This document shows, piece after piece, positions 2,804 to 51,453 of a stretch of 64,000 nucleotides of DNA (its first letter is position 1; the number at the start of each line of letters is the position of its first letter). Source of the DNA: a bacterium (lineage in GTDB: Bacteria; Armatimonadota; Fimbriimonadia; Fimbriimonadales; Fimbriimonadaceae). The notes under the pieces were generated by a model, which worked only from the letters and a program-made list of their open reading frames with translations, had not been told where the DNA came from and searched no databases. The stretch covers positions 434,001-498,000 of the forward strand of contig PNMZ01000001.1 in the NCBI GenBank assembly GCA_013823945.1. Direction: 5' to 3'. A program made the translations under genes and the position numbers.

Positions 2804-4317
<1,514 letters not shown>

Positions 4318-5424: not shown

Positions 5425-7752
5425 ATGGCGACTCCATCAAGGCTCGAAGCCCTGAACACCCTCCGCGTCGCCAACCTCGACGTCGCCTTCGCGACCGCAT
5501 TCGTCACCCTGTTTGGCGGATCGCTCATGGTCGGTTTTATCCAGCATCTCGGCGGCGGTGACTTCGCCATCGGACTCCTCGGAGCCGTCCCCGCCCTCAT
5601 GGGACTCATGCAAATCCCTGGAGCCGTCCTCGGGCGCGGGGCTGCTAGCTTCAAAAAATATGTCGCAACTGGCGGATTTCTCTGGCGACTCTTCTTCCTT
5701 CCTCTGATTTTCTTACCTCTTATCCCCCTCCCCGATCAAATCCGACTCGCAATTCTTCTTTTGTGCCTCGGCATCGCCGCTTTCTGCCAAAACTTCGTGA
5801 ACCCCATTTACAACGAGTGGATCGGAAAAATCGTCCCCGAGCGCGCCCGTGGATGGTATTTCAGCCAGCGCACACTCATCTCCACCATCACCGGAATGGT
5901 CGTCGGCCTTATCGGAGCCCGACTCCTTGACGTTTTCAAAGGCCAACCCAACGAGCATATTGGCTACACCATCATTTTCGGCCTTGGATGGATCTGCGCC
6001 ATGGTCAGCTTATTCTTTTACAACCGAATGTCCGACTCAACGCGTGAAGAAGTCGTCAAACCAGATTTCCGCAACATGGTCGAAGTCATTCGCGAACCCC
6101 TCCGCGATAAAAACTTCCGCCAAATCATGGCCTTCGTTGTCGTCTTCACCGCCTCCCAGGGGTTCGCTGGCAACTTATTCTCCGCCTTTGCCTTCGAAAG
6201 CCTCAAGCTCCCCTTCCTCTATCTCCAACTCACCGGTGTTTCGTTTGCCATCGGCACCATTGCCACCGTCCGCATTTGGGGATTCCTCGCCGACCGCTAC
6301 GGAAACAAACCCCTCCTCATCCTCATGATGATCGGCCTCGCCACTGGCCCGCTCCAATGGATGATCTGTATTCCCGATCCCAGCTATGCGGTTACCAACA
6401 CCGCAATCCTCTTTGTTGGTCACATCTTCACTGGCATTTTCTGGTCCGGCGTAGGCGTCACTCAGATGAACCTCTACCTCGCCACTTCCACCCCCCAAAA
6501 TCGGGCCAATTACCTCGCCGCCGCCCTCACCATCGCCGCAATTTCCATGGGTCTCTCTCCGCTCCTCGGTTCTGCAACCGTCAACTTTCTTCGGGAACCC
6601 ATCGGTGCCGCTAATGCCTACAAAGTAGCATTCCTCATCGTCGGCCTCCTCCGAGTCTTCGCGATTTTCCTCCTGAAACCCGTTCACGAAGAACGATCCG
6701 AAGGTTTCTCCGAAACTCTCCGTCAACTCACCGGTGTCCGCCCCAAATCATTCACCGCCCTTCGTTCAATCCGCAAGGGATCTGACGAATCCACCCGCGA
6801 GCAAGCCATCCGATCTATGGGCGAATCCAAAATGTCCCTGGGAACGAGTGAACTCCACGATGCCCTCTTCGATCCCACCCCCCGTGTCCGCCGCGAAGCC
6901 GCAATCGCCCTTGGTCGTCTTCGTAGCCTTCCCGCTGCCGAAGCCCTTCTCGACCACGCTCGAGCGCACCCCGATCTCATCGAAGAAGAAACCATCGAAG
7001 CCCTCGGAGATTGCGGTCAGCCTGTGGCAATCCCATTCCTCACGGAAAGTCTCCAGAATCCGAGCAGCATTGTAAGACGCGCCGCCGCAAAGTCACTCGG
7101 ACGCATCGGCGATCCCAGCGCAATCGAATCTCTTCGCGGGGCCGCAACCCAACCCGGTGATCCTGATATCCGTCGCGCCGCTCTTCAAGCCCTCCGGAGC
7201 CTAGAAGCCACCGACCCCACTCTCTACGAAGACGCACTTCTCGAACAACACCCTAGTGTCCGAACCGCCGCCGCCGAAGCCGTGAGCGAACTCAAAATCG
7301 CCGAACTCGCCCCAAGCCTTCGCACCAGTTTGGACTGGTATCAAGACGAAGCTCTCAGCGAAGTTGCCTACGCCCTCGGCACAATCGGCACCCCCACCGA
7401 CCTTCCCTTAATCCTCCGCTCAGCCCAAAACGCCATCAGCGAAACCAAGCGCCGTCGCTGCCTCCTCGGAGCCGCCAAACTGTTCGATCTTGACCGCGAG
7501 TTCTACCGATTCCTTGCCCTCGAAGAAGTCTCCCGCGATACAGAAATCCTCCGCAAATTCCGGCCTCTCACTCGACGAAGCGCCGCATTCGCGGAAGCCC
7601 TCGAAGCTTACTCATCGGGCAATGAACCTGCCGCTCTCCGCATCCTTGCCGAATCCAATCCGGAACAATTCCAAGTCTGGGCAACCTACCCTGTGTCAGA
7701 ATCGTTCTTAATCGTTGCCACTTTGTTCCAAACCGAACTCAGTCGCGACTAG
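5425..7752 (+). CDS. MFS-type membrane transporter fused to HEAT-like repeats
   Basis: 775 residues, far longer than a usual MFS protein (about 400-450). Residues 1 to about 425 give roughly twelve hydrophobic spans with MFS-like loops (for example GFLADRYGNKP between mid-protein helices). Residues about 445-700 form repeated alpha-helical HEAT/PBS-lyase-like units (EAAIALGRLRSLPAAEALL, RRAAAKSLGRIGDPSAIESL, AALQALRSLEATDP). The C-terminal part is therefore probably a cytoplasmic interaction scaffold. The substrate is unknown. The cyclase gene starts 7 bases after the stop, so the pair is co-transcribed. A CATTAT hexamer abuts the ATG, which leaves the exact start uncertain. Confidence 0.85.
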   Translation: MATPSRLEALNTLRVANLDVAFATAFVTLFGGSLMVGFIQHLGGGDFAIGLLGAVPALMGLMQIPGAVLGRGAASFKKYVATGGFLWRLFFLPLIFLPLIPLPDQIRLAILLLCLGIAAFCQNFVNPIYNEWIGKIVPERARGWYFSQRTLISTITGMVVGLIGARLLDVFKGQPNEHIGYTIIFGLGWICAMVSLFFYNRMSDSTREEVVKPDFRNMVEVIREPLRDKNFRQIMAFVVVFTASQGFAGNLFSAFAFESLKLPFLYLQLTGVSFAIGTIATVRIWGFLADRYGNKPLLILMMIGLATGPLQWMICIPDPSYAVTNTAILFVGHIFTGIFWSGVGVTQMNLYLATSTPQNRANYLAAALTIAAISMGLSPLLGSATVNFLREPIGAANAYKVAFLIVGLLRVFAIFLLKPVHEERSEGFSETLRQLTGVRPKSFTALRSIRKGSDESTREQAIRSMGESKMSLGTSELHDALFDPTPRVRREAAIALGRLRSLPAAEALLDHARAHPDLIEEETIEALGDCGQPVAIPFLTESLQNPSSIVRRAAAKSLGRIGDPSAIESLRGAATQPGDPDIRRAALQALRSLEATDPTLYEDALLEQHPSVRTAAAEAVSELKIAELAPSLRTSLDWYQDEALSEVAYALGTIGTPTDLPLILRSAQNAISETKRRRCLLGAAKLFDLDREFYRFLALEEVSRDTEILRKFRPLTRRSAAFAEALEAYSSGNEPAALRILAESNPEQFQVWATYPVSESFLIVATLFQTELSRD

Positions 7753-43500: not shown

Positions 43501-44550
43501 ATGACTAACCTCCTGAAACTCCTCGCAGACCTTATCGCAATCCCCTCAGTCTCCCACAACGAAACGGAAATCGCTAACTTCGTCTTCTTCTATCTCACTC
43601 AAAATGGCATAACCCCATCTCGAATCGGCAACAATATCATCGCCCAAACAAGCGACAAACCGCATCTCCTCCTCAATTCCCACCTCGACACCGTCCCCCC
43701 CAACGACGCCTGGACGAGACCCCCATGGGAACCCGCGCAAGAAGGCGACCATATCTTCGGCCTTGGTTCCAACGACGCAAAAGGTTGCGTTGCCGCCATG
43801 ATCACCGCCTTCATCGCCAATAAATCCAACCCCGGACTAGCTCTCCTCCTCAGTCCCGAAGAAGAAACCGGTGGTCAAGGCACAGAATTTGCCTGGCCCA
43901 TCCTCCGCGACGAACAAAACTGGAACCCCGGGGCCATCATCGTCGGTGAACCAACCGAACTCCAAATCGGCACCGTCCAACGCGGGCTGCTCCTCCTAGA
44001 CCTCGTCGCAAAAGGCCAAGCCAGCCACGCCGCGAACGCCAACCCGACCGGTGAAACAAATCCCATTTTCACCATTGCCCGTGACCTCGTCAAACTCCAA
44101 AACATCACCCTCACTCCTCACCCCGAACTTGGTCAGCCAACCATCCAACCCACCGTTCTTACCGGAGCCGAAGCCCGCAATCAAATTCCCGGCGAAGCCC
44201 GCGCCAGCCTCGATATCCGAACCGTTCCCATCGAAACCCACGCTGAAATCATCGCTCTCCTCGAAGAGACTCTTACCTCCGAAATCGAAGTTCGATCCCA
44301 ACGCCTCACGCCTTTCGCCTGCAACCCCAAAGCCAAAGTCATCCAAACCATCATGTCCCTCCTCCCGAAGTCCAAAACCTTCGCCAGCCGCACCATGTCT
44401 GACCAAGTCCATTTCACAGGATTCAACGCGGTCAAATTCGGCCCTGGTGTCTCCGCCAGATCCCACACTGCCGACGAATTTATCCTCGCTTCCGAACTCA
44501 TCGCCGGAGCACAAGCCTACGACCAAATCATCAAGGAATTCCTGTCATGA
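43501..44550 (+). CDS. argE: M20-family deacylase, ArgE-type (N-acyl-citrulline or N-acyl-ornithine deacylase)
   Basis: 349 residues. Metal and catalytic sites of the M20 peptidases are present: NSHLDTVPP, GLGSNDAKGCVAAMI, LSPEEETGGQG, IIVGEPTELQIG and HTADEFI. In a pathway with N-acylornithine carbamoyltransferase the substrate should be N-acetyl- or N-succinyl-citrulline, not acetylornithine. It overlaps argH by ATGA. LysK/DapE-like specificity is an alternative by family, but the operon argues for arginine. Confidence 0.92.
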   Translation: MTNLLKLLADLIAIPSVSHNETEIANFVFFYLTQNGITPSRIGNNIIAQTSDKPHLLLNSHLDTVPPNDAWTRPPWEPAQEGDHIFGLGSNDAKGCVAAMITAFIANKSNPGLALLLSPEEETGGQGTEFAWPILRDEQNWNPGAIIVGEPTELQIGTVQRGLLLLDLVAKGQASHAANANPTGETNPIFTIARDLVKLQNITLTPHPELGQPTIQPTVLTGAEARNQIPGEARASLDIRTVPIETHAEIIALLEETLTSEIEVRSQRLTPFACNPKAKVIQTIMSLLPKSKTFASRTMSDQVHFTGFNAVKFGPGVSARSHTADEFILASELIAGAQAYDQIIKEFLS

Positions 44551-45725
44551 ACAAAACGACTCGCCTCTGGGACAAGGGCCAACCCATCAACGACCAAATC
44601 CTCGCCTTCACCGTCGGCAACGACCCCATTCTTGACCAACGCCTCATCCCTTACGACATTACTGCCAGCATTGCCCACGCCCAAATGCTCGGCGAGCAAA
44701 ACCACCTCACCCAGGAAGAAGTTGAAAAACTCACCCAAGCCCTCGAAGAACTCCGAAGCGAAGACATCCAAATCTCCCGTGACGAAGAGGACTGCCACAC
44801 CGCAATCGAAAATCGCCTCACCCAAAAGCTTGGCGACCTCGGTGGCAAAATTCACCTCGGACGATCCCGCAACGACCAAGTTCTCACCGCTCTCCGCCTC
44901 TATTACCGTCAAGTGATTGTCGACATCCATTCCTATACAAAAGAGGCGATGGCAAGTCTAATTGAGCTCTCCCACAATCAAGGCGAGATCAAAATCCCTG
45001 GCTACACCCACCTCCAACAAGCAATGCCCTCCTCCGTTTCGCTCTGGGCAATGGGCTACACCGCCGAACTCAATCATTCCCTCAACACCTTCGCTGCCGC
45101 CGAACACCTCATCAGCCTCAACCCCTTAGGATCAGCCGCGGGCTTCGGCACCCCGGGACTCACTCTCAACCGTGAATCCACCACCAAAAAACTCGGATTC
45201 ACCCAAGCCCACGAACCCGTCACCGCCCCTCAACTCAGTCGAGGTAAAGCTGAATCCGCCCTCGCGTTCAGCCTGTGCCTCATCATGCAAGATCTCGGGC
45301 GACTCGCCGCCGATCTCTGTCTTTACAACTCCCAAGAATTCGCCATGGTCACCCTCGCAGACGACATCACTACCGGGTCAAGCATCATGCCCCAAAAACG
45401 CAATCCCGATGTCTTCGAACTCATCCGGGGCCACTCCGCCCAAGCTCCCGCCGAACTCCAAGCCATCCAGAACATCACGCTCAAAATGACCTCTGGCTAC
45501 CACCGCGACCTCCAACTCATCAAAGAACCCCTCTTCCGACTCATCGACCGCACCCACCAAACCCTTCAAATCACCACCTACGCCCTCACCCGGATCACAT
45601 TCAACGCTGAACGAGCGACTCAAATCACCGACCCCAGCATTCACGCCGCCGAAGCCGCATTCGCCCTCGTCCAAACCGAAAAAATCAGCTTCCGCGAGGC
45701 CTACCGCCGCATCGCTGCGAACTAA
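44547..45725 (+). CDS. argH: Argininosuccinate lyase
   Basis: Splits argininosuccinate to arginine and fumarate, the last step. 392 residues, somewhat shorter than the usual 450-460. Fumarase/aspartase-superfamily signatures are present: IHLGRSRNDQVLTALRL, GYTHLQQAMPSSV and the signature loop GSSIMPQKRNPD. It closes the operon; a convergent terminator separates it from rsr. The shorter length reflects a trimmed C-terminus rather than loss of active-site motifs. Confidence 0.95.
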   Translation: MNKTTRLWDKGQPINDQILAFTVGNDPILDQRLIPYDITASIAHAQMLGEQNHLTQEEVEKLTQALEELRSEDIQISRDEEDCHTAIENRLTQKLGDLGGKIHLGRSRNDQVLTALRLYYRQVIVDIHSYTKEAMASLIELSHNQGEIKIPGYTHLQQAMPSSVSLWAMGYTAELNHSLNTFAAAEHLISLNPLGSAAGFGTPGLTLNRESTTKKLGFTQAHEPVTAPQLSRGKAESALAFSLCLIMQDLGRLAADLCLYNSQEFAMVTLADDITTGSSIMPQKRNPDVFELIRGHSAQAPAELQAIQNITLKMTSGYHRDLQLIKEPLFRLIDRTHQTLQITTYALTRITFNAERATQITDPSIHAAEAAFALVQTEKISFREAYRRIAAN

Positions 45726-45765
45726 GCAACCCCGCACCAACTTCAATACTTAAAAAATCAAAGTC

Positions 45766-45794
45766 GCTCTCCTTTCCCTAAAAGAAAGAAGAGC
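45766..45794 (-). terminator. Terminator of the rsr transcript (possibly also argH)
   Basis: An 11-position stem (GCTCTCCTTTC against GAAAGAAGAGC, one mismatch) with a 7-base loop. On the minus strand it is followed by GACTTTGATTTTTT, a T-rich run; on the plus side there is none. It lies 12 bases after the rsr stop. Confidence 0.6.
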
Positions 45795-45806
45795 AACTTG
45801 TGACCG

Positions 45807-47396
45807 TTAGTCCGCCAGAAACTGGCGAATCAAACTCGGAACCGAAGCATCAAATCCCACTACATTGAGTGTGAGCGGATCACCCGGATCTCCAATTGTT
45901 GACCGCGTCGAAGCCATTGCGACAACAATCAACTTCGCCCGAGGATTTAACTTTTTCCGGTACTCCTTCATCGCTTGCGCCGGATGCTGACTTCCGTACC
46001 AGGTTTCTGAGTCTGTGTAGATCACAAACGCGTCCACCGCCAACTTCCGCTTCAACGCAAAGTGGATCGGAGCCGCACAGTCCGTTCCTCCGCCTCCGGT
46101 CTTCTCAAGAATCCCGACGACATGATCCAATCGCATTGAACGATTCAACTTCAGTTCATACGCCTTCGTGTCAAAAGCGATATGCGTAACCGATTCTTCT
46201 TGAGCCGAAGTCACGAGAGCCATCGCCGCACAAGCCTTTCGGCAGTCCAGCCCGGCAATTCCCGCAACCGACGTTCCGCACATCGATCCTGAAACGTCAA
46301 GCCCCAGCAACAAGCGACGGCCCGCTGATTCCAAGTTCTCGAACGAGTCGTAAAACGCACGGTCAAGCGCATCAACCACTCGTTGAACAGGCTTCCACGT
46401 TCCAGTTCCCCGGAACCCTCGCCCGCTCGAATATGTGTTCAAAGCCGCCAAAATGGTGATCGGATGAATCCGCGACTTCCGCAACCGCATCGGGTTCTCA
46501 AGCGCCGAAACAACCGTTTCAACTCCGTTCGAGTACCCCGAAAGGATGCCCTTACGCAACACGCCAAGCTTGGAAAGATTTCCCAAATTTCGCAGCATCG
46601 CCGTCAATGGCATATCATCCAACAAAGCTTCCCAAACCAGGGGCTCAGTCAACCATTCTGTCGGAACAGCTTCTCGCGGAATCCGATTCTCGCGAATCAA
46701 ACGACACGCTTCCGCTAGATCAGTTACTTCGTGCAAAGCCATCGCCGCCCGAACAATCGGAATCTCCAGATTCAACTCCTTAGCCGTTGCCCACTTGAAC
46801 AAAGCATTGTGCTCGTCCGACACCGCTACCGGGTGAGCGAGCCGCAGCAAGTCACGGTGACTCCAACCATTCCGAGACTGATACTTGATCAATCCGTAAG
46901 CCAAGGCCTCCGCAGATTGCGAGTTGTACCAATTTCCAATCGCCTTCCGCAGTCCGCGACCCCATCCTCGGAGAGAGTCACAAGCAGAAGCAAATGCAAA
47001 CAAGTGCGTTCCAGTTCGGCAAACAAGCGGTACGGCAACATAGGCTGCCTTCCGAGTCGGCTCATCCCCGTACGTTGTCGCCAACGCAAGAGCAAAAATC
47101 GCCGCATCGTTCTTCGGTGCCAGATTTTTCGTGCTGACTTCAATGATTCGCGATATTAACCGCAAACCATCTTCCTTGATTGCCTCGATCACGTTCTGGG
47201 CGTTCATCTCCGTCAAGGCCATGGCCCCAACGTAATAAGTACCTGTCTCGCTCCCAAGGATCAAGAAACGGTCAACGAGTTCCCATCGATCCACCGTCCA
47301 TCCAAAGCCACCTGCATGGTTCTTGGTCTGACCAGAACCTGCAATAGCTCGATTTTGACGGGTCTTATTCGATTGGAAGAGTTGTGTGTATTTCAT
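45807..47396 (-). CDS. rsr: Ro60 orthologue Rsr (TROVE ring plus vWA domain)
   Basis: 529 residues. The TROVE HEAT-repeat ring spans about 1-350 (NKTRQNRAIAGSGQTKNHAG at the start, GLIKYQSRNGWSHRDLLRL near 170). The vWA domain begins near 360 with the MIDAS motif DVSGS at 367-371 and later GGGGTD and YTDSETW. Bacterial Rsr binds Y RNA on the outside of its ring and works with exoribonucleases in rRNA maturation and RNA decay under stress. The ATG is preceded by AAGGAG. A run of Y-RNA-like units lies directly upstream on the same strand and apparently the same transcript. Confidence 0.96.
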   Translation of the reverse strand: MKYTQLFQSNKTRQNRAIAGSGQTKNHAGGFGWTVDRWELVDRFLILGSETGTYYVGAMALTEMNAQNVIEAIKEDGLRLISRIIEVSTKNLAPKNDAAIFALALATTYGDEPTRKAAYVAVPLVCRTGTHLFAFASACDSLRGWGRGLRKAIGNWYNSQSAEALAYGLIKYQSRNGWSHRDLLRLAHPVAVSDEHNALFKWATAKELNLEIPIVRAAMALHEVTDLAEACRLIRENRIPREAVPTEWLTEPLVWEALLDDMPLTAMLRNLGNLSKLGVLRKGILSGYSNGVETVVSALENPMRLRKSRIHPITILAALNTYSSGRGFRGTGTWKPVQRVVDALDRAFYDSFENLESAGRRLLLGLDVSGSMCGTSVAGIAGLDCRKACAAMALVTSAQEESVTHIAFDTKAYELKLNRSMRLDHVVGILEKTGGGGTDCAAPIHFALKRKLAVDAFVIYTDSETWYGSQHPAQAMKEYRKKLNPRAKLIVVAMASTRSTIGDPGDPLTLNVVGFDASVPSLIRQFLAD

Positions 47397-47434
47397 TTCT
47401 TTTTTCTCCTTGTGTTTTCCAGTCTGATTTCAGT

Positions 47435-47549
47435 CTCGCGGGCAAGTGGCGCCATGGCGTAAACATTGGCAAAGCCAATGCCCCCTAGATTTGAACTAGG
47501 TAAACCCAAAAGGGCCTCTTACCGATAAGCCAGAGCTTCGGCCCGCAAG
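47435..47549 (-). ncRNA. Y RNA-like unit E, with partial tRNA-like module
   Basis: A closing stem of 9 bp (CTTGCGGGC / GCCCGCGAG) is followed by the conserved 5' strand GGGCCGAAGCTCTGGCTTATC-like pattern and answered by CACTTG on the 3' side, the layout of the Ro-binding helix of Y RNAs. The inner part holds a T-arm mimic (CCTAG-TTCAAAT-CTAGG, 47484-47500) and a perfect 7-bp hairpin capped by TTT (47464-47480) in place of an acceptor stem; the D-arm is reduced to GCCATGGC. It ends 38 bases before the rsr ATG. Confidence 0.82.
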
Positions 47550-47568
47550 AAAGGCGTTTTGTAACGAC

Positions 47569-47710
47569 TTCCGGACAAGGCTTGGCCTGGGAAAAGTTGC
47601 CCGTCCGCGATCCACTCGCCTCAACGCAGCGCGTTGGTCGCTCTTTCCAGCGAAGACACCCAAAGTGGGCAACTAGGATGGGAGGGATAACCCAAACATC
47701 CGGCCCGGAA
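47569..47710 (-). ncRNA. Y RNA-like unit D, long multi-helix insert
   Basis: The closing stem is 8 bp (TTCCGGGC / GTCCGGAA). The conserved strand GGGCCGGATG ... GGGTTATC and the 3' motif CCTTG match the other units. The insert of about 100 bases is closed by a perfect 7-bp helix GTTGCCC / GGGCAAC (47667-47673 with 47596-47602) and holds hairpins CAACGC-GCT-GCGTTG and CGCT-GGAAAG-AGCG. No clear T-loop sequence is visible, so this unit differs from the tRNA-like ones. Confidence 0.72.
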
Positions 47711-47751
47711 GTCAAATCTTCAATTGTTGTCGTTGTAGGGATGAGTCGGGA

Positions 47752-47881
47752 TTGCAGACAAGGGTTGCCTTGGCCAAGTGCTCTAACCACTGAGCTACCT
47801 TCGCCCCGAAAGGCGAAAGGCTGGATTCGAACCAGCGACCTCTCACGTTAAAGGTGATAAGCCAAAAGCTTCGGCCCGCAA
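47752..47881 (-). ncRNA. Y RNA-like unit C, YrlA type with complete permuted tRNA module
   Basis: The closing stem is 8 bp (TTGCGGGC / GTCTGCAA, two G-U pairs). The conserved strand GGGCCGAAGC ... TGGCTTATC pairs with GCCAAGG, followed by CCTTG. Inside, in circularly permuted order, lie a T-arm (GCTGG-TTCGAAT-CCAGC, 47820-47836), an acceptor-like stem closed by a TTTCGG loop (47798-47819) and a D-arm (GCTC-AGTGGTTA-GAGC, 47780-47795). This is the arrangement known for YrlA of Salmonella and mycobacteria, where the Y stem replaces the anticodon arm. Confidence 0.88.
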
Positions 47882-47915
47882 TCTCAAATTTTCGTCATCG
47901 AACCGTTGGAACGAA

Positions 47916-48014
47916 CTCGCGAACAAGGGGACGCATCTGGCTATTCTTTCCCAGAGACCCGTATGATCAGGCCCCGTGAGTTTCTAAGGTAAGCCAAAAG
48001 CTCCGGCTCGCGAG
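47916..48014 (-). ncRNA. Y RNA-like unit B
   Basis: The closing stem is 9 bp (CTCGCGAGC / GTTCGCGAG). The conserved strand GAGCCGGAGC ... TGGCTTACC pairs through TGGCT / AGCCA and is followed on the 3' side by CCCTTG, as in the other units. The inner loop of about 50 bases has a GGGGCC ... GGGTCTC region that could be a degenerate T-arm, but no standard T-loop is visible. Confidence 0.72.
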
Positions 48015-48042
48015 TACGAGTCCAAAGTGAATGGTTCAGGCG

Positions 48043-48109
48043 GTAGGCAAGTCACTTGCAACTTGGGTACTTTCTCGGTATCAACGATAACCCAAGGCAT
48101 CCGGCCCAC
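48043..48109 (-). ncRNA. Y RNA-like unit A, minimal form without tRNA module
   Basis: The shortest unit (67 bases). The closing stem is GTGGGC / GCCTAC; the conserved strand GGGCCGGATGC ... GGGTTATC pairs through a perfect CTTGGGT / ACCCAAG helix and ends with GACTTG. The loop has only a small hairpin (TATC-GTT-GATA). It is the unit closest to the promoter and looks like a bare Ro-binding stem comparable to a vertebrate Y RNA. Confidence 0.72.
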
Positions 48110-48243
48110 ACGCATTTAATGAGTCAGGGGAGCTATTTGGGATAATCCCGCTCCAAATTCGTCGTTTCTTCTCTGTGCCATCGCCGCACTTCAAGGAGCC
48201 GACGATAACACTATTTAGGTTGTATGCCTGTCACAGCGATGCA

Positions 48244-48272
48244 AATGTACCACGCTAAAAAAGGACTGTCAA
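48244..48272 (-). promoter_or_regulatory. Promoter of the Y RNA array and rsr
   Basis: On the minus strand -35 TTGACA (48267-48272), 17-base spacer, -10 TACATT (48244-48249); predicted start near 48237. About 130 bases of leader with two small hairpins precede unit A. No other good promoter was seen between here and rsr, which suggests one precursor containing all five units and the rsr message. Confidence 0.65.
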
Positions 48273-48536
48273 CCGAGTCCCAAAAAAAACGATCTCCATA
48301 TATTCAAATTTTTAGCCTGAAATTGAACTCAAATCCGGTGCTCGCAAAATCGCTAGGACCATCCCCGTTGCGGCCAAATTCCGTCCCACCCATACCGTTT
48401 CCTTAAAACTAGACCATAATAGAACCGTTCGATGTCCGGATTCCTGGTGAGGCGATAATTTTGGGAATGACCCTTAGATTCCCCTGACCCGAAAGAAACA
48501 GACCCGAAACAAACGCTAAACCAGCGAGTCAAAAAC

Positions 48537-48941
48537 ATGGCAGTCAAAACCCTATTCGTTGGGAACCTTCCGTTCTCAGCTACAAATACTCAGCTCGAAG
48601 CTCATTACGGAGCCTACGGTGGAACCAACGCCCGCATCATCCCCGACCGAGGATTCGGATTCGTGGACGTGGACGAAGATCAAATGCAAGCCGCAATTGA
48701 TGCCACCAACGAGCAAGACTTCAAAGGCCGAAATATCCGCGTCAACGAAGCTAAGCCCCGAGAAGATCGACCCCGCGAATCACGCGGTGGCGGCGGCGGT
48801 GGTTACGGCGGCGGCGGTGGCGGCGGCTACAACCGAGGCGGCGGAAGCGGCGGCGGTGGTGGTTACGGCGGCGGCGGTGGACGTGGCGGCGATCGTGACC
48901 GCGGCGGACGCGGCGGTCGAGATCGCGACGACCGCTGGTAA
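48537..48941 (+). CDS. RRM-type RNA-binding protein with glycine-rich RGG-like tail
   Basis: 134 residues. One RNA recognition motif (about 3-80) with RNP2 LFVGNL and RNP1 RGFGFVDV, then a tail of about 50 residues made of G runs with Y, R and D (GGGYGGGGGRGG type), as in bacterial and plant glycine-rich RNA-binding proteins. Members often respond to cold and act as RNA chaperones. It is divergent from the Y RNA/rsr transcript, so the locus groups two RNA-binding proteins with the Y RNAs; a functional link is inference. A strong terminator follows. Confidence 0.93.
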   Translation: MAVKTLFVGNLPFSATNTQLEAHYGAYGGTNARIIPDRGFGFVDVDEDQMQAAIDATNEQDFKGRNIRVNEAKPREDRPRESRGGGGGGYGGGGGGGYNRGGGSGGGGGYGGGGGRGGDRDRGGRGGRDRDDRW

Positions 48942-48953
48942 CAGACCAGCAAC

Positions 48954-48991
48954 AAAAAATCCCCTTGCTCTATCAGCAAGGGGATTTTTTT
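48954..48991. terminator. Bidirectional intrinsic terminator
   Basis: A perfect 15-bp palindrome (arms 48955-48969 and 48975-48989, sharing the core ATCCCCTTGCT / AGCAAGGGGAT) with loop CTATC and T runs on both strands. It ends the RRM gene and the convergent gene at 49008-49622. Confidence 0.9.
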
Positions 48992-49007
48992 GTCAAAAAG
49001 TAAATCT

Positions 49008-49622
49008 CTATCCCCCGCCCTCCGCCTTCTTCACCTCCGCTCTCGACTCCGCAATCACCGTTTCCCAAGTCACCCATTTCCCCGTGTCCGAATCAATCGA
49101 TCCCTTAATCCCCATCTTTTTAGTCGTCGCGATGTACCCCTCGACCAACTTCTGAGCCCGCTTCATCTTAGCGATCCGAGTCGGCTCCTCAATCGACCTC
49201 TCCGCCGCAATCCCAAACAAGATATCCACAAATCCCACACTCGATTTCGCTCCGCCACCCACTTGCACAACTGGAGTCCTGAATACAAATTCCCGGTCGT
49301 TCACCGCCATGTAAGTGATCCCTCCTTCCGGGCGAAATTGAATCTCCAAATCACACGCCCCCGAACTCCAGGGCACCCGCACACCGCTTTTCACTTGGAT
49401 GCTCGGCCCCTTGTACCATGGCCCAACAAAGGTTGTCAAAAACTTGGTGCAAACCGCCGCGCTCACCCCTTTCACCTCGTCCGGATGCATCACCTGCCGA
49501 AACTCCGTCCCGTCCGCCTGCCGCATCGCTCGGTCAAACATCACCTCGACTTGCTCTTCCGTGAGGTCATAATCCTGCCCCACCATCGCCCCACACATCA
49601 ACGAAAACGCCAGTACCGACAT
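49008..49622 (-). CDS. Secreted protein of unknown function
   Basis: 204 residues from the chosen start. A short signal peptide (MSVLAFSLMCGAMVGQ) is followed by a soluble domain I do not recognise; a central region (VCTKFLTTFVGPWYKGPSIQ, then a V/F-rich beta segment) and a C-terminal charged helix can be seen. The ATG at 49640 is possible, but the ATG at 49622 starts the signal peptide directly and lies 6 bases after a -10 element TATTAT, so I take it as the leaderless start. It is divergent from a methyltransferase gene. Confidence 0.72.
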   Translation of the reverse strand: MSVLAFSLMCGAMVGQDYDLTEEQVEVMFDRAMRQADGTEFRQVMHPDEVKGVSAAVCTKFLTTFVGPWYKGPSIQVKSGVRVPWSSGACDLEIQFRPEGGITYMAVNDREFVFRTPVVQVGGGAKSSVGFVDILFGIAAERSIEEPTRIAKMKRAQKLVEGYIATTKKMGIKGSIDSDTGKWVTWETVIAESRAEVKKAEGGG

Positions 49623-49627
49623 GAAAC

Positions 49628-49634
49628 TATAATA
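49628..49634. promoter_or_regulatory. Symmetric -10 element shared by two divergent leaderless genes
   Basis: TATAATA on the plus strand reads TATTATA on the minus strand. The plus -10 (TATAAT, 49628-49633) ends 9 bases before the ATG at 49643; the minus -10 (TATTAT) ends 6 bases before the ATG at 49622. One palindromic hexamer could thus drive both genes with almost no leader. No good -35 was seen on the plus side. Confidence 0.5.
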
Positions 49635-49642
49635 CGCCACTT

Positions 49643-50365
49643 ATGAATCAAAATCCAGAATCCTCCCTCGAAAAATGGCGATCCTCCGCCCAAGCCTGGA
49701 TCACCGACCAAGGCGAAACCGGTGACTGGTCGCGACGCACCATCCTCGACCCCGCTCTCGAAACAATCCTCCCCAATCTCCAGAACAAATCTGTTCTCGA
49801 TCTCGGCTGCGGCGAAGGCCGGTACGCCCGAATCCTCAAATCCAAAGGCGCAATCGCTACGGGAATTGACCCCACCCCCGAATTCATTGACCACGCCAGA
49901 TCCCAAGACCCTGACTCAACCTACATCCTCGCCCCCGCCGAGTCCATCCCCCTCCCCGACCACCAATTCGACCTCATCCTCAGCTATCTCAGCATCATCG
50001 ACATCCCCGACCTCGAGGCCGCCAGCCAAGAAATCTCTCGTCTCCTTCTACCCGGCGGGGAATTCGTTGTCGTCACAATCAGCAACCTCGCCTCAACCAC
50101 CAACGGCTGGGTCAAAGATGAAAACGGTAACAAGCTCTACCGCCATGTGGATCGCTACATGGAACACTTCGGCATGGATCTCGAATGGCGCAACATCCGC
50201 ATCACCAACTACCACCGTCCCCTCTCTTACATTCTTAATCTATTCCTCAAGAAATCCTTTGTCCTCACCGAATTTATCGAACCCCTCCCCCCACAATCTG
50301 ACCCCCAGTACCCCTACGAATACCGCTGCCCCAACTTCCAAATCTACACCCTCCGCAAACTCTAA
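49643..50365 (+). CDS. SAM-dependent methyltransferase (class I)
   Basis: 240 residues. SAM-binding motif I is SVLDLGCGEGRYARIL, followed by GIDPTPEFIDHA and DLILSYLSIIDIPDLEAA, a Methyltransf_11-type domain in the N-terminal two thirds. A C-terminal region (DRYMEHFGMDLEWRNIRITN) probably shapes the substrate site. Small-molecule substrate unknown. It converges with the Gfo/Idh/MocA gene, with the two stops overlapping by 4 bases. Confidence 0.87.
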   Translation: MNQNPESSLEKWRSSAQAWITDQGETGDWSRRTILDPALETILPNLQNKSVLDLGCGEGRYARILKSKGAIATGIDPTPEFIDHARSQDPDSTYILAPAESIPLPDHQFDLILSYLSIIDIPDLEAASQEISRLLLPGGEFVVVTISNLASTTNGWVKDENGNKLYRHVDRYMEHFGMDLEWRNIRITNYHRPLSYILNLFLKKSFVLTEFIEPLPPQSDPQYPYEYRCPNFQIYTLRKL

Positions 50366-51453
50366 TCCACTTCTCCATCCGCCAGACCATCCGGCAACCG
50401 AGCGGGCTGAACCCCACTCTCAATCACCACCGCTGAGCCAGAAACAGAAGATTCATGCGCCGCATGCATTACATCCAAAGCATGAAACGCCAATTCCCCA
50501 CTCGCCCGGTGCGCCCGCCCGGATCGAATCCCTGCCGCCATATCTGCAAGTCCAATCGAGCGAGAATTCTCCCGATTCGCAAACCTCAACGGAACATCCT
50601 CCCACTCATCACCTCGCCCGAGTCGAATCTCGCCCCCAAACGTATTCGGATCTGGACAATTCAAACTCCCCTCCGTCCCATAAACCTGGATATTCGGCAA
50701 AGTGTGCGCTCGCACATCAAAGCTCGTCACTAGAGTCCCCACCACCCCGCTTTCCATTTCCAGCAAACACTGAACGTGAGTCGGAACCTTCACCGGCGCA
50801 ACCTTCCCCGCATGAGGCTCCGAGGTAATCATCCGCTCCTCCAAAGCCTTGGAAGTCGTCCCAAAAACTCGACGCACCGGCCCAAACAGGTGAACCAAAG
50901 CCGTGATGTAATATGGACCCATATCAAACATCGGCCCCGCCCCTTCTTCATAGAAAAAGAACGGATTAGGATGCCAAGCCTCTACCCCCGCACTCATCAT
51001 AAACGCCGTAAATGAAGTCGGTTTCCCAATGGCTCCCTCCTCAATCACGGCCCGAACCGTTTGATAACCCGCCCCCAAAAACGTATCTGGTGCACAACCA
51101 ACCCGCACTCCCCCTGCCGATGCCAAGTCCAATATCTCCCGCCCTTCTTCTCGCTTAACCGCCAGCGGTTTCTCTCCATAAACATGCTTCCCCGCCGCAA
51201 TCCCCGCCCTCATAATCCCTGCGTGTTCTATAGGATCGGTCAAATTCAGAACAATATCAATCTCAGCATCTCTAAGCAACTCGGCAACCGAAACCGCCCG
51301 AATCCCGAACTTCTCCGCTGATTTCTCCGCCCGCTCATGGATCCGATCCGCCCCCGCCACAATCTCAATCCCCGCCATCCGCTGAGAAATCTCCAAGTAA
51401 GCCGGACTGATATTCCCGCACCCAATCACACCAATTCTCATATGCTCCATCAT
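50362..51453 (-). CDS. Gfo/Idh/MocA-family sugar oxidoreductase
   Basis: 363 residues. An N-terminal Rossmann domain (IGVIGCGNISPAYL, then the family's GKHVYGEKPLAV with catalytic Lys) is followed by the alpha/beta C-terminal domain (AHTLPNIQVYGTEGSLNC). Members oxidise or reduce sugars and inositols with NAD(P); those near ThuA and DUF1080 genes often act in 3-keto-sugar metabolism. It starts right at the thuA stop. Several ATG codons near the start (51453, 51450, 51441) leave the exact one open. Confidence 0.9.
   Translation of the reverse strand: MMEHMRIGVIGCGNISPAYLEISQRMAGIEIVAGADRIHERAEKSAEKFGIRAVSVAELLRDAEIDIVLNLTDPIEHAGIMRAGIAAGKHVYGEKPLAVKREEGREILDLASAGGVRVGCAPDTFLGAGYQTVRAVIEEGAIGKPTSFTAFMMSAGVEAWHPNPFFFYEEGAGPMFDMGPYYITALVHLFGPVRRVFGTTSKALEERMITSEPHAGKVAPVKVPTHVQCLLEMESGVVGTLVTSFDVRAHTLPNIQVYGTEGSLNCPDPNTFGGEIRLGRGDEWEDVPLRFANRENSRSIGLADMAAGIRSGRAHRASGELAFHALDVMHAAHESSVSGSAVVIESGVQPARLPDGLADGEVD

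Follow-up and report, generated by a model that had tools for sequence, protein, structure and literature searches.

The rsr locus and its five Y RNA units

The window (the whole stretch of 64,000 nucleotides that was analysed) belongs to a 3.16 Mb genome of the Armatimonadota (Fimbriimonadaceae). Five Y RNA units were located on its minus strand, at 48112-47435, between a sigma-70-like promoter and the sole rsr (Ro60) gene of the genome. The features are listed below from the promoter to the end of rsr; R2 is the covariance model of the unit core, R1 that of the junction domain, and A3 and A5 are the alignments used for U3 and U5.

48244-48272, minus strand: sigma-70-like promoter, TTGACA-N17-TACATT with TG ahead of the second hexamer (promoter scan)
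48120-48225, minus strand: leader element upstream of U1, limits approximate (CGTCGA..TCGACG pairing in relatives)
48040-48112, minus strand: U1, short type (S), 73 nt (R2 49.7 bits; in the R2 training set)
47916-48014, minus strand: U2, longer hairpin type (X), 99 nt (R2 25.7 bits)
47751-47882, minus strand: U3, full tRNA-mimic type (T), 132 nt (R2 32.6 bits; fold covaries in 14 loci)
47820-47836, minus strand: T arm of U3, GCTGG-TTCGAAT-CCAGC (conserved loop, covarying stem in alignment A3)
47799-47819, minus strand: closed acceptor-like hairpin of U3 (covarying stem, A3 columns 65-72/94-101)
47781-47796, minus strand: D arm of U3, GCTC..GAGC (its four stem pairs are the same in all 14 A3 sequences)
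47568-47711, minus strand: U4, four-way-junction type (J), 144 nt (unfiltered R2 18.6 bits, partial)
47599-47660, minus strand: four-way-junction domain inside U4 (covarying pairs; R1 74.1 bits, in the R1 training set)
47435-47549, minus strand: U5, partial tRNA-mimic type (t), 115 nt (R2 26.7 bits)
47484-47500, minus strand: T arm of U5, CCTAG-TTCAAAT-CTAGG (covarying stem, A5 columns 53-57/65-69)
45807-47396, minus strand: rsr, Ro60 orthologue, 529 aa (Pfam TROVE and vWA_Ro60; PDB 2nvo, E 3e-102)
45761-45799, minus strand: terminator-like hairpin 3' of rsr, 18-pair stem followed by a T-rich tail (terminator scan)

The original prediction had placed five tandem Y RNA-like units on the minus strand ahead of a Ro60 gene, and both the motif scanner and the core model found all five there. 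The lengths proposed for U2 (99 nt) and U5 (115 nt) were retained, while those of U1, U3 and U4 were revised from 67, 130 and 142 to 73, 132 and 144 nt, respectively. Consecutive units are separated by spacers of 25, 33, 39 and 18 nt, and 38 nt lie between the end of U5 and the rsr start codon. The units of the window share a common plan, in which a stem strand with GGGC or GAGC at its end precedes one unpaired C; then come GA or GG, a short upper stem, the box GG-TTA[TC]C, a variable distal part, CTTG and the second stem strand. All nine bases of the closing stem are paired in U2 to U5, and that of U1 consists of six inner pairs and three outer mismatches. The bulged C was present in all five units of the window and, in the phylum as a whole, in 124 of 125, the latter figure not being independent since the scanner that picked the units favours C. 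According to the available part of a review (PMC4030889), this base is the primary binding site of Ro60 and is retained in bacterial Y RNAs. The Ro-binding lower stem, the bulged C, both boxes and the covariation of the stems uphold the proposed identity of the units as Y RNAs.

A search of positions 44000-51000 with the unfiltered core model R2, which was built from 34 short units including U1, indicated that the five best matches were the five units, all on the minus strand, with scores of 49.7, 26.8, 25.7, 18.6 and 17.1 bits (the matches in U3 and U4 being partial); the next best match scored 6.3 bits. U4 was not recovered in the R2 locus search at E 0.05. Analysis of the window with Rfam gave a notable match for U3 alone, to YrlA, and all Y RNA models scored below their cut-offs. 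In the covariance-model search suggested with the original prediction, Rfam support for the window itself was weak, the YrlA model remaining below its cut-off on U3; the locally built core model found all five units.

The assignment of the downstream gene to Ro60 was borne out. Its product carries the TROVE and vWA_Ro60 domains, and the best solved structure for it was D. radiodurans Rsr, followed by two further Ro60 chains. H188 of the window Rsr aligned with H187 of human Ro60. The same review, as far as its text was available (PMC4030889), names this human residue as essential to the contact between Ro60 and Y RNA in their complex. The window Rsr shares 99% identity with the protein of 'Armatimonadetes bacterium Uphvl-Ar1' and 81% with that of a Fimbriimonadaceae MAG. 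One TROVE gene, rsr, was found in the genome, which also carries a gene for PNPase. Divergent from the array lies a gene coding for a glycine-rich RRM-domain RNA-binding protein (48537-48941, plus strand), and a weak Rfam Ref55 match resembling a terminator hairpin was observed at 48950-49004 on the minus strand (35.4 bits, cut-off 43).

The promoter at 48272-48244, which had been proposed to serve the whole array, is the only promoter-like site on the minus strand between 45700 and 48560, and neither a promoter-like nor a terminator-like site was detected on this strand between the units in the site scan. By chance, 1.5 promoter-like sites on both strands and 3.7 terminator-like sites are expected in the region, so that only conservation of such sites could carry weight; a terminator-like hairpin (48281-48262) overlaps the promoter itself. 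A related site with a 19-base spacer, TTGACA-N19-TANANT, was found upstream of the array in four of eight near relatives (L064, L065, L070 and L071) and was not found in L066-L069, which qualifies the proposal of a single promoter. The leader between promoter and U1, about 100 nt long, is conserved in part. In L064-L071, the CGTCGA..TCGACG pairing is accompanied by an inner and a second hairpin; most of the window row is unpaired in the alignment of these relatives, and RNAfold prefers one long hairpin for the window. The leader consensus is weak, with nine pairs and an unfavourable covariation term (+0.35), and Rfam gave no match for the window leader (48120-48225). No processing signals were identified in the array.

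Distribution and conservation of the units in the Armatimonadota

Units were sought upstream of rsr genes in the window and its relatives with a scanner that combines three short weight matrices with a stem. Upstream of rsr, it gave 132 hits in 128 kb, a number that includes overlapping hits and those of the near-copy L063; it gave none downstream (132 kb), on the opposite strand or in shuffled sequence. When overlapping hits were resolved by a stem search, a looser count gave 125 units (L063 left out) as against one downstream and none on the opposite strand. Since the scanner rewards pairing, 81 units were also picked by motif alone. In these, the outer five positions paired with their own partner in 0.805 of cells, compared with 0.528 after shuffling (maximum 0.602 in 2000 shuffles) and 0.607 when partners were taken from other units of the same array. 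Among the 34 short units, which were picked by the pairing scanner, 91.2% of cells paired as against 34-49% when the strands were slid, and pairing was maintained through compensatory changes in these units as well. Compensatory changes in relatives, named with the original prediction as a check, were therefore found in the short units and outer stems, and also in U3 and the U4 junction as described below.

Rsr was detected in 56 of 291 Armatimonadota genomes (E 1e-20). At E 1e-4 or better, R2 gave matches in 31 of these 56 genomes and in none of the 235 genomes that lack rsr. As 27 of the 31 had contributed sequences to the model (the exceptions are G002, G015, G080 and the near-copy G151), the fair part of this test is the empty 235 genomes. 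The Y core tracks rsr across the phylum. Genome G106 carries two rsr genes (L041 and L049); the scanner found no unit at either, and R2 found one at L049 (E 1.1e-4). In G003, a minimal unit of 68 nt with a fully paired nine-base stem was observed between open reading frames (L113 4012-4079, minus strand, equal to G003:C28:68511-68578), and the rsr gene of this genome was found on another contig (C46).

The number of units per locus was determined for the 52 Armatimonadota rsr loci whose upstream sequence is 1.1 kb or longer. No unit was found in 12 loci, one in 13, two in eight, three in three, four in five, five in five, and six, seven and eight in two loci each. These counts are approximate, R2 finding units missed by the scanner (e.g. 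in L049 and L080) and some scanner units resting on a relaxed 3' box. Loci L045, L046 and L057 were left out of all counts, and L059 of the distribution, for short upstream sequence; the near-copy L063 was left out of phylum counts and loci without units were left out of the unit alignments. Since 12 of the 52 loci are without a unit and 13 have one, an array is not needed beside rsr in the phylum. Five units is a high but ordinary number for the phylum, in which the array, contrary to the original prediction, is not exceptional: three or more units occur in 19 of the 52 loci, and some loci outside the phylum hold several candidates in a loose scan.

To describe the order of units, distal parts were sorted into short (S), full tRNA mimic (T), T arm only (t), junction (J) and other (X), which gives the order S-X-T-J-t for the window. 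The order was S-T-J-t in L064, L065, L070 and L071, S-S-T-J-t in L066, S-S-T-J-t-X in L067 and S-S-T-T-T-J-t in L069, while L068 had S-S-t-t-T-T-J-X, its last unit being without a T arm. The S-T-J-t order is therefore kept in the window and in seven of the eight near relatives L064-L071, with extra units in some, and other orders were found in more distant loci. Rsr identity in the eight relatives ranges from 61 to 81%, which indicates that the order of units outlasted much sequence change. U2 was seen in the window, in the near-copy L063 and in L064, where a counterpart with an altered TTATC box was readable and had been missed by the scanner. No T-arm unit was found in 13 of the 40 loci with units, a number to be read with the fact that the scanner and the T-arm rule miss some.

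Distal domains and their relation to known Y RNAs

Atop its Y stem, U3 carries three tRNA-like elements in permuted order, namely a T arm, a closed acceptor-like hairpin and a D arm. The fold contains 36 predicted pairs over 14 loci, 21 of them changed on both sides. U3 matched Rfam YrlA (RF02553) with 30.6 bits (E 0.001), below the cut-off of 69, and the tRNA model weakly (22 bits); ARAGORN found no tRNA in positions 44000-50000 of the window. Taken alone, the YrlA match is poor evidence, since weak matches below the cut-off were obtained in seven of 14 control genomes, with a TROVE gene in one of the 14; in eight loci of relatives, YrlA scored up to 49.2 bits. With the T arm, the acceptor-like closed stem and the D arm all present, U3 is of the YrlA design. 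It resembles YrlA in the lower stem with bulged C, in the permuted arms and in its place beside rsr, and differs in its sub-threshold score and in being one of five differing units. According to the available part of a review (PMC8394870), YrlA has a domain similar to the D, T and acceptor arms of tRNA, which serves DusA and TruB as a substrate.

U5 keeps the T arm and has no D arm by the unit-sorting rule. It covaries in eight loci, and its alignment A5 leaves out L068, whose last unit has no T arm. Upstream of rsr, the tRNA model passed its cut-off in L036, L068 and L094 and equalled it in L077. The sequences in L094 are two stretches of Picosynechococcus pAQ7 (2690-2796 and 2822-2944, plus strand), each longer than 100 nt, which may be tRNA-mimic Y RNAs. 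In L077 (genome G074), a fluoride riboswitch above its gathering score was observed at 6963-7033 on the minus strand, about 2 kb upstream of the array.

The distal part of U4 has no T arm and is not a tRNA-like domain. It forms a four-way junction in which a closing helix meets three hairpins, one with an NNAAAG loop, one variable in sequence and one whose five-base loop ends in GA. Alignment of nine sequences revealed 18 pairs, 12 of them changed on both sides, and 98.1% of cells paired as against 28-41% when slid; RNAalifold recovered the same four helices unaided. A reading of the junction as tRNA-like, by arm order and short linkers, was dropped for want of a T loop. R1 matched once in each of ten genomes of two genera, nine being training sources and one the near-copy G151, and every match lay in an rsr array. 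It also matched the held-out genome G132 of another genus (L072, 39.1 bits, E 1.4e-7), at a position that had been assigned to a Y unit by the scanner before. Nineteen weaker matches in the 291 genomes (E 3.6e-4 to 0.0099) and five in the studied loci (E 0.061 to 0.9) were treated as chance. A strict motif search for the junction returned near relatives already known and none further. The junction domain gave no significant match to a known family in Rfam, the sole overlap being with the nematode stem-bulge RNA (RF01656) over the whole of U4 (17.3 bits, E 1.3). Two units of relatives passed the RF01656 cut-off of 38 (L036, 41.9; L065, 38.3; eight loci examined), whereas six more matches in the same eight loci were below it.

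Features absent from the original prediction are the tRNA-like domains in U3 and U5, the junction domain in U4 and the partly conserved leader.

The gene for the Y RNA of D. radiodurans presumably also lies upstream of rsr. The available part of PMC4726728 describes this Y RNA as tying Rsr to PNPase and gating access to it. The window resembles the Rsr/Y RNA/PNPase system (RYPER) in having an Rsr orthologue and a PNPase gene in the genome, and differs from it in the array and the junction domain, neither of which appears in the available parts of the accounts in PMC4726728 and PMC8394870.

Since a scan of named genomes with Rsr had returned just two close relatives, other phyla were sampled through ten rsr loci on plasmid or phage records, chosen among the 64 plasmid and 357 phage records that gave a match; a scan of viral contigs with Rsr found no relative. 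R2 matched upstream of rsr in four of the ten, namely Mycobacterium phage Colt (E 0.0024 and 0.0061), Streptomyces phage Genie2 (0.0029), Nonomuraea (0.011) and Gordonia phage Cashline (0.025), and in none of the remaining six at E 0.05. The actinobacteriophage and actinobacterial loci resemble the window in having Y RNA-like units upstream of rsr, with up to four candidates per locus in a loose scan. Unlike the window, they gave no significant R1 match in this small sample of ten loci, and no Rfam Y RNA family reached its cut-off there. In Gordonia phage Forza (L097, about 5510-5870, plus strand), Y-like candidates from the loose scan lie downstream of rsr in a tRNA/tmRNA cluster, with no R2 match.

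Proposed function and alternative explanations

With the order of the array, its structures, their covariation and the co-occurrence with rsr observed, we asked what the five units may do. From the sequence, it is rather probable that five Y RNAs are cut from the precursor of one promoter that also includes rsr, compete for one Rsr and give it differing partners. A single precursor carrying the five Y RNAs and rsr would be transcribed from the promoter and the Y RNAs would be cut out of it. The shared lower stem would then dock on the outer face of the Rsr ring, as expected from homology. The distal parts would present a bare stem-loop in U1, an extended hairpin in U2, a full closed tRNA mimic in U3, the junction in U4 and a partial mimic in U5. 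In competition for one Rsr, the mix of RNAs would set the gating of the ring, and the distal part of each would pick the partner, be it PNPase, tRNA-modifying or tRNA-binding proteins or a new junction partner. Choice of partner by the distal parts is suggested by the conserved order and structures, while the single precursor, the competition and the binding to Rsr are suggested by homology. The alternative Ro60 gates or tethers of the original prediction likewise remain a proposal.

The main rivals are a cis-acting leader and a set of partly redundant duplicates. In the first, Rsr would bind its own leader through the five stems and repress or stabilise the rsr mRNA, the units not being released. 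The array ends only 38 nt before the start codon with no promoter-like or terminator-like site between, and in 24 of the 40 loci with units no more than 120 nt separate the end of the last unit from rsr, as such a leader would have it; in the other 16, however, the distance exceeds 120 nt, and the minimal unit of G003 is on another contig than rsr. The conserved tRNA-mimic and junction folds also exceed the needs of an operator, and in Salmonella the Y RNA genes follow rsr, the operon being written rsr-yrlBA-rtcBA in the available part of PMC7790460. We regard a mainly cis-acting array as unlikely.

Slightly less likely again is that only one or two units work and the rest are paralogues of tandem duplication that drift without selection. 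Unit number, which varies from 0 to 8 per locus, and U2, confined to the window, its near-copy and the altered-box L064, are in keeping with drift. U3, U4 and U5, however, are positional orthologues with compensatory changes at Rsr identities down to about 61%, and the short units carry compensatory changes as well.

That the units are unrelated repeats or tRNA debris with a chance likeness to Y RNAs is scarcely credible in spite of the tRNA-like arms of U3 and U5, the 22 bits of U3 and the three loci in which the tRNA model passed its cut-off, being already contradicted by the controls (0 or 1 hit as against 125-132 upstream), by the absence of an ARAGORN tRNA in 44000-50000 and by the covariation of stems and domains.

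The Y RNA units themselves are of a known kind; the junction-bearing unit and the fixed mixed array represent a variation on it, of which no description was found in the open-licence literature searched, nor was any paper found there that treats Ro60 together with an Armatimonad. At somewhat less than even likelihood, Ro60 of the Fimbriimonadaceae could act as a multi-adaptor platform. Its Y RNAs would then form a fixed cassette in which every member has a distal domain of its own, and the junction of U4, as an undescribed RNA domain, would dock a partner so far not known from any Ro60 particle.

With an ordered set of differing Y RNAs beside one rsr gene, it becomes testable whether the choice of partner for the ring lies with the distal domains. 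In the search for a new Ro60 partner, the junction domain offers a clear bait, and natural experiments are provided by the phylum, whose rsr loci carry 0 to 8 units. Since five differing Y RNAs lie ahead of one Ro60 gene and their order is largely kept in relatives, a single protein of RNA quality control may make use of several RNA adaptors that are interchangeable.
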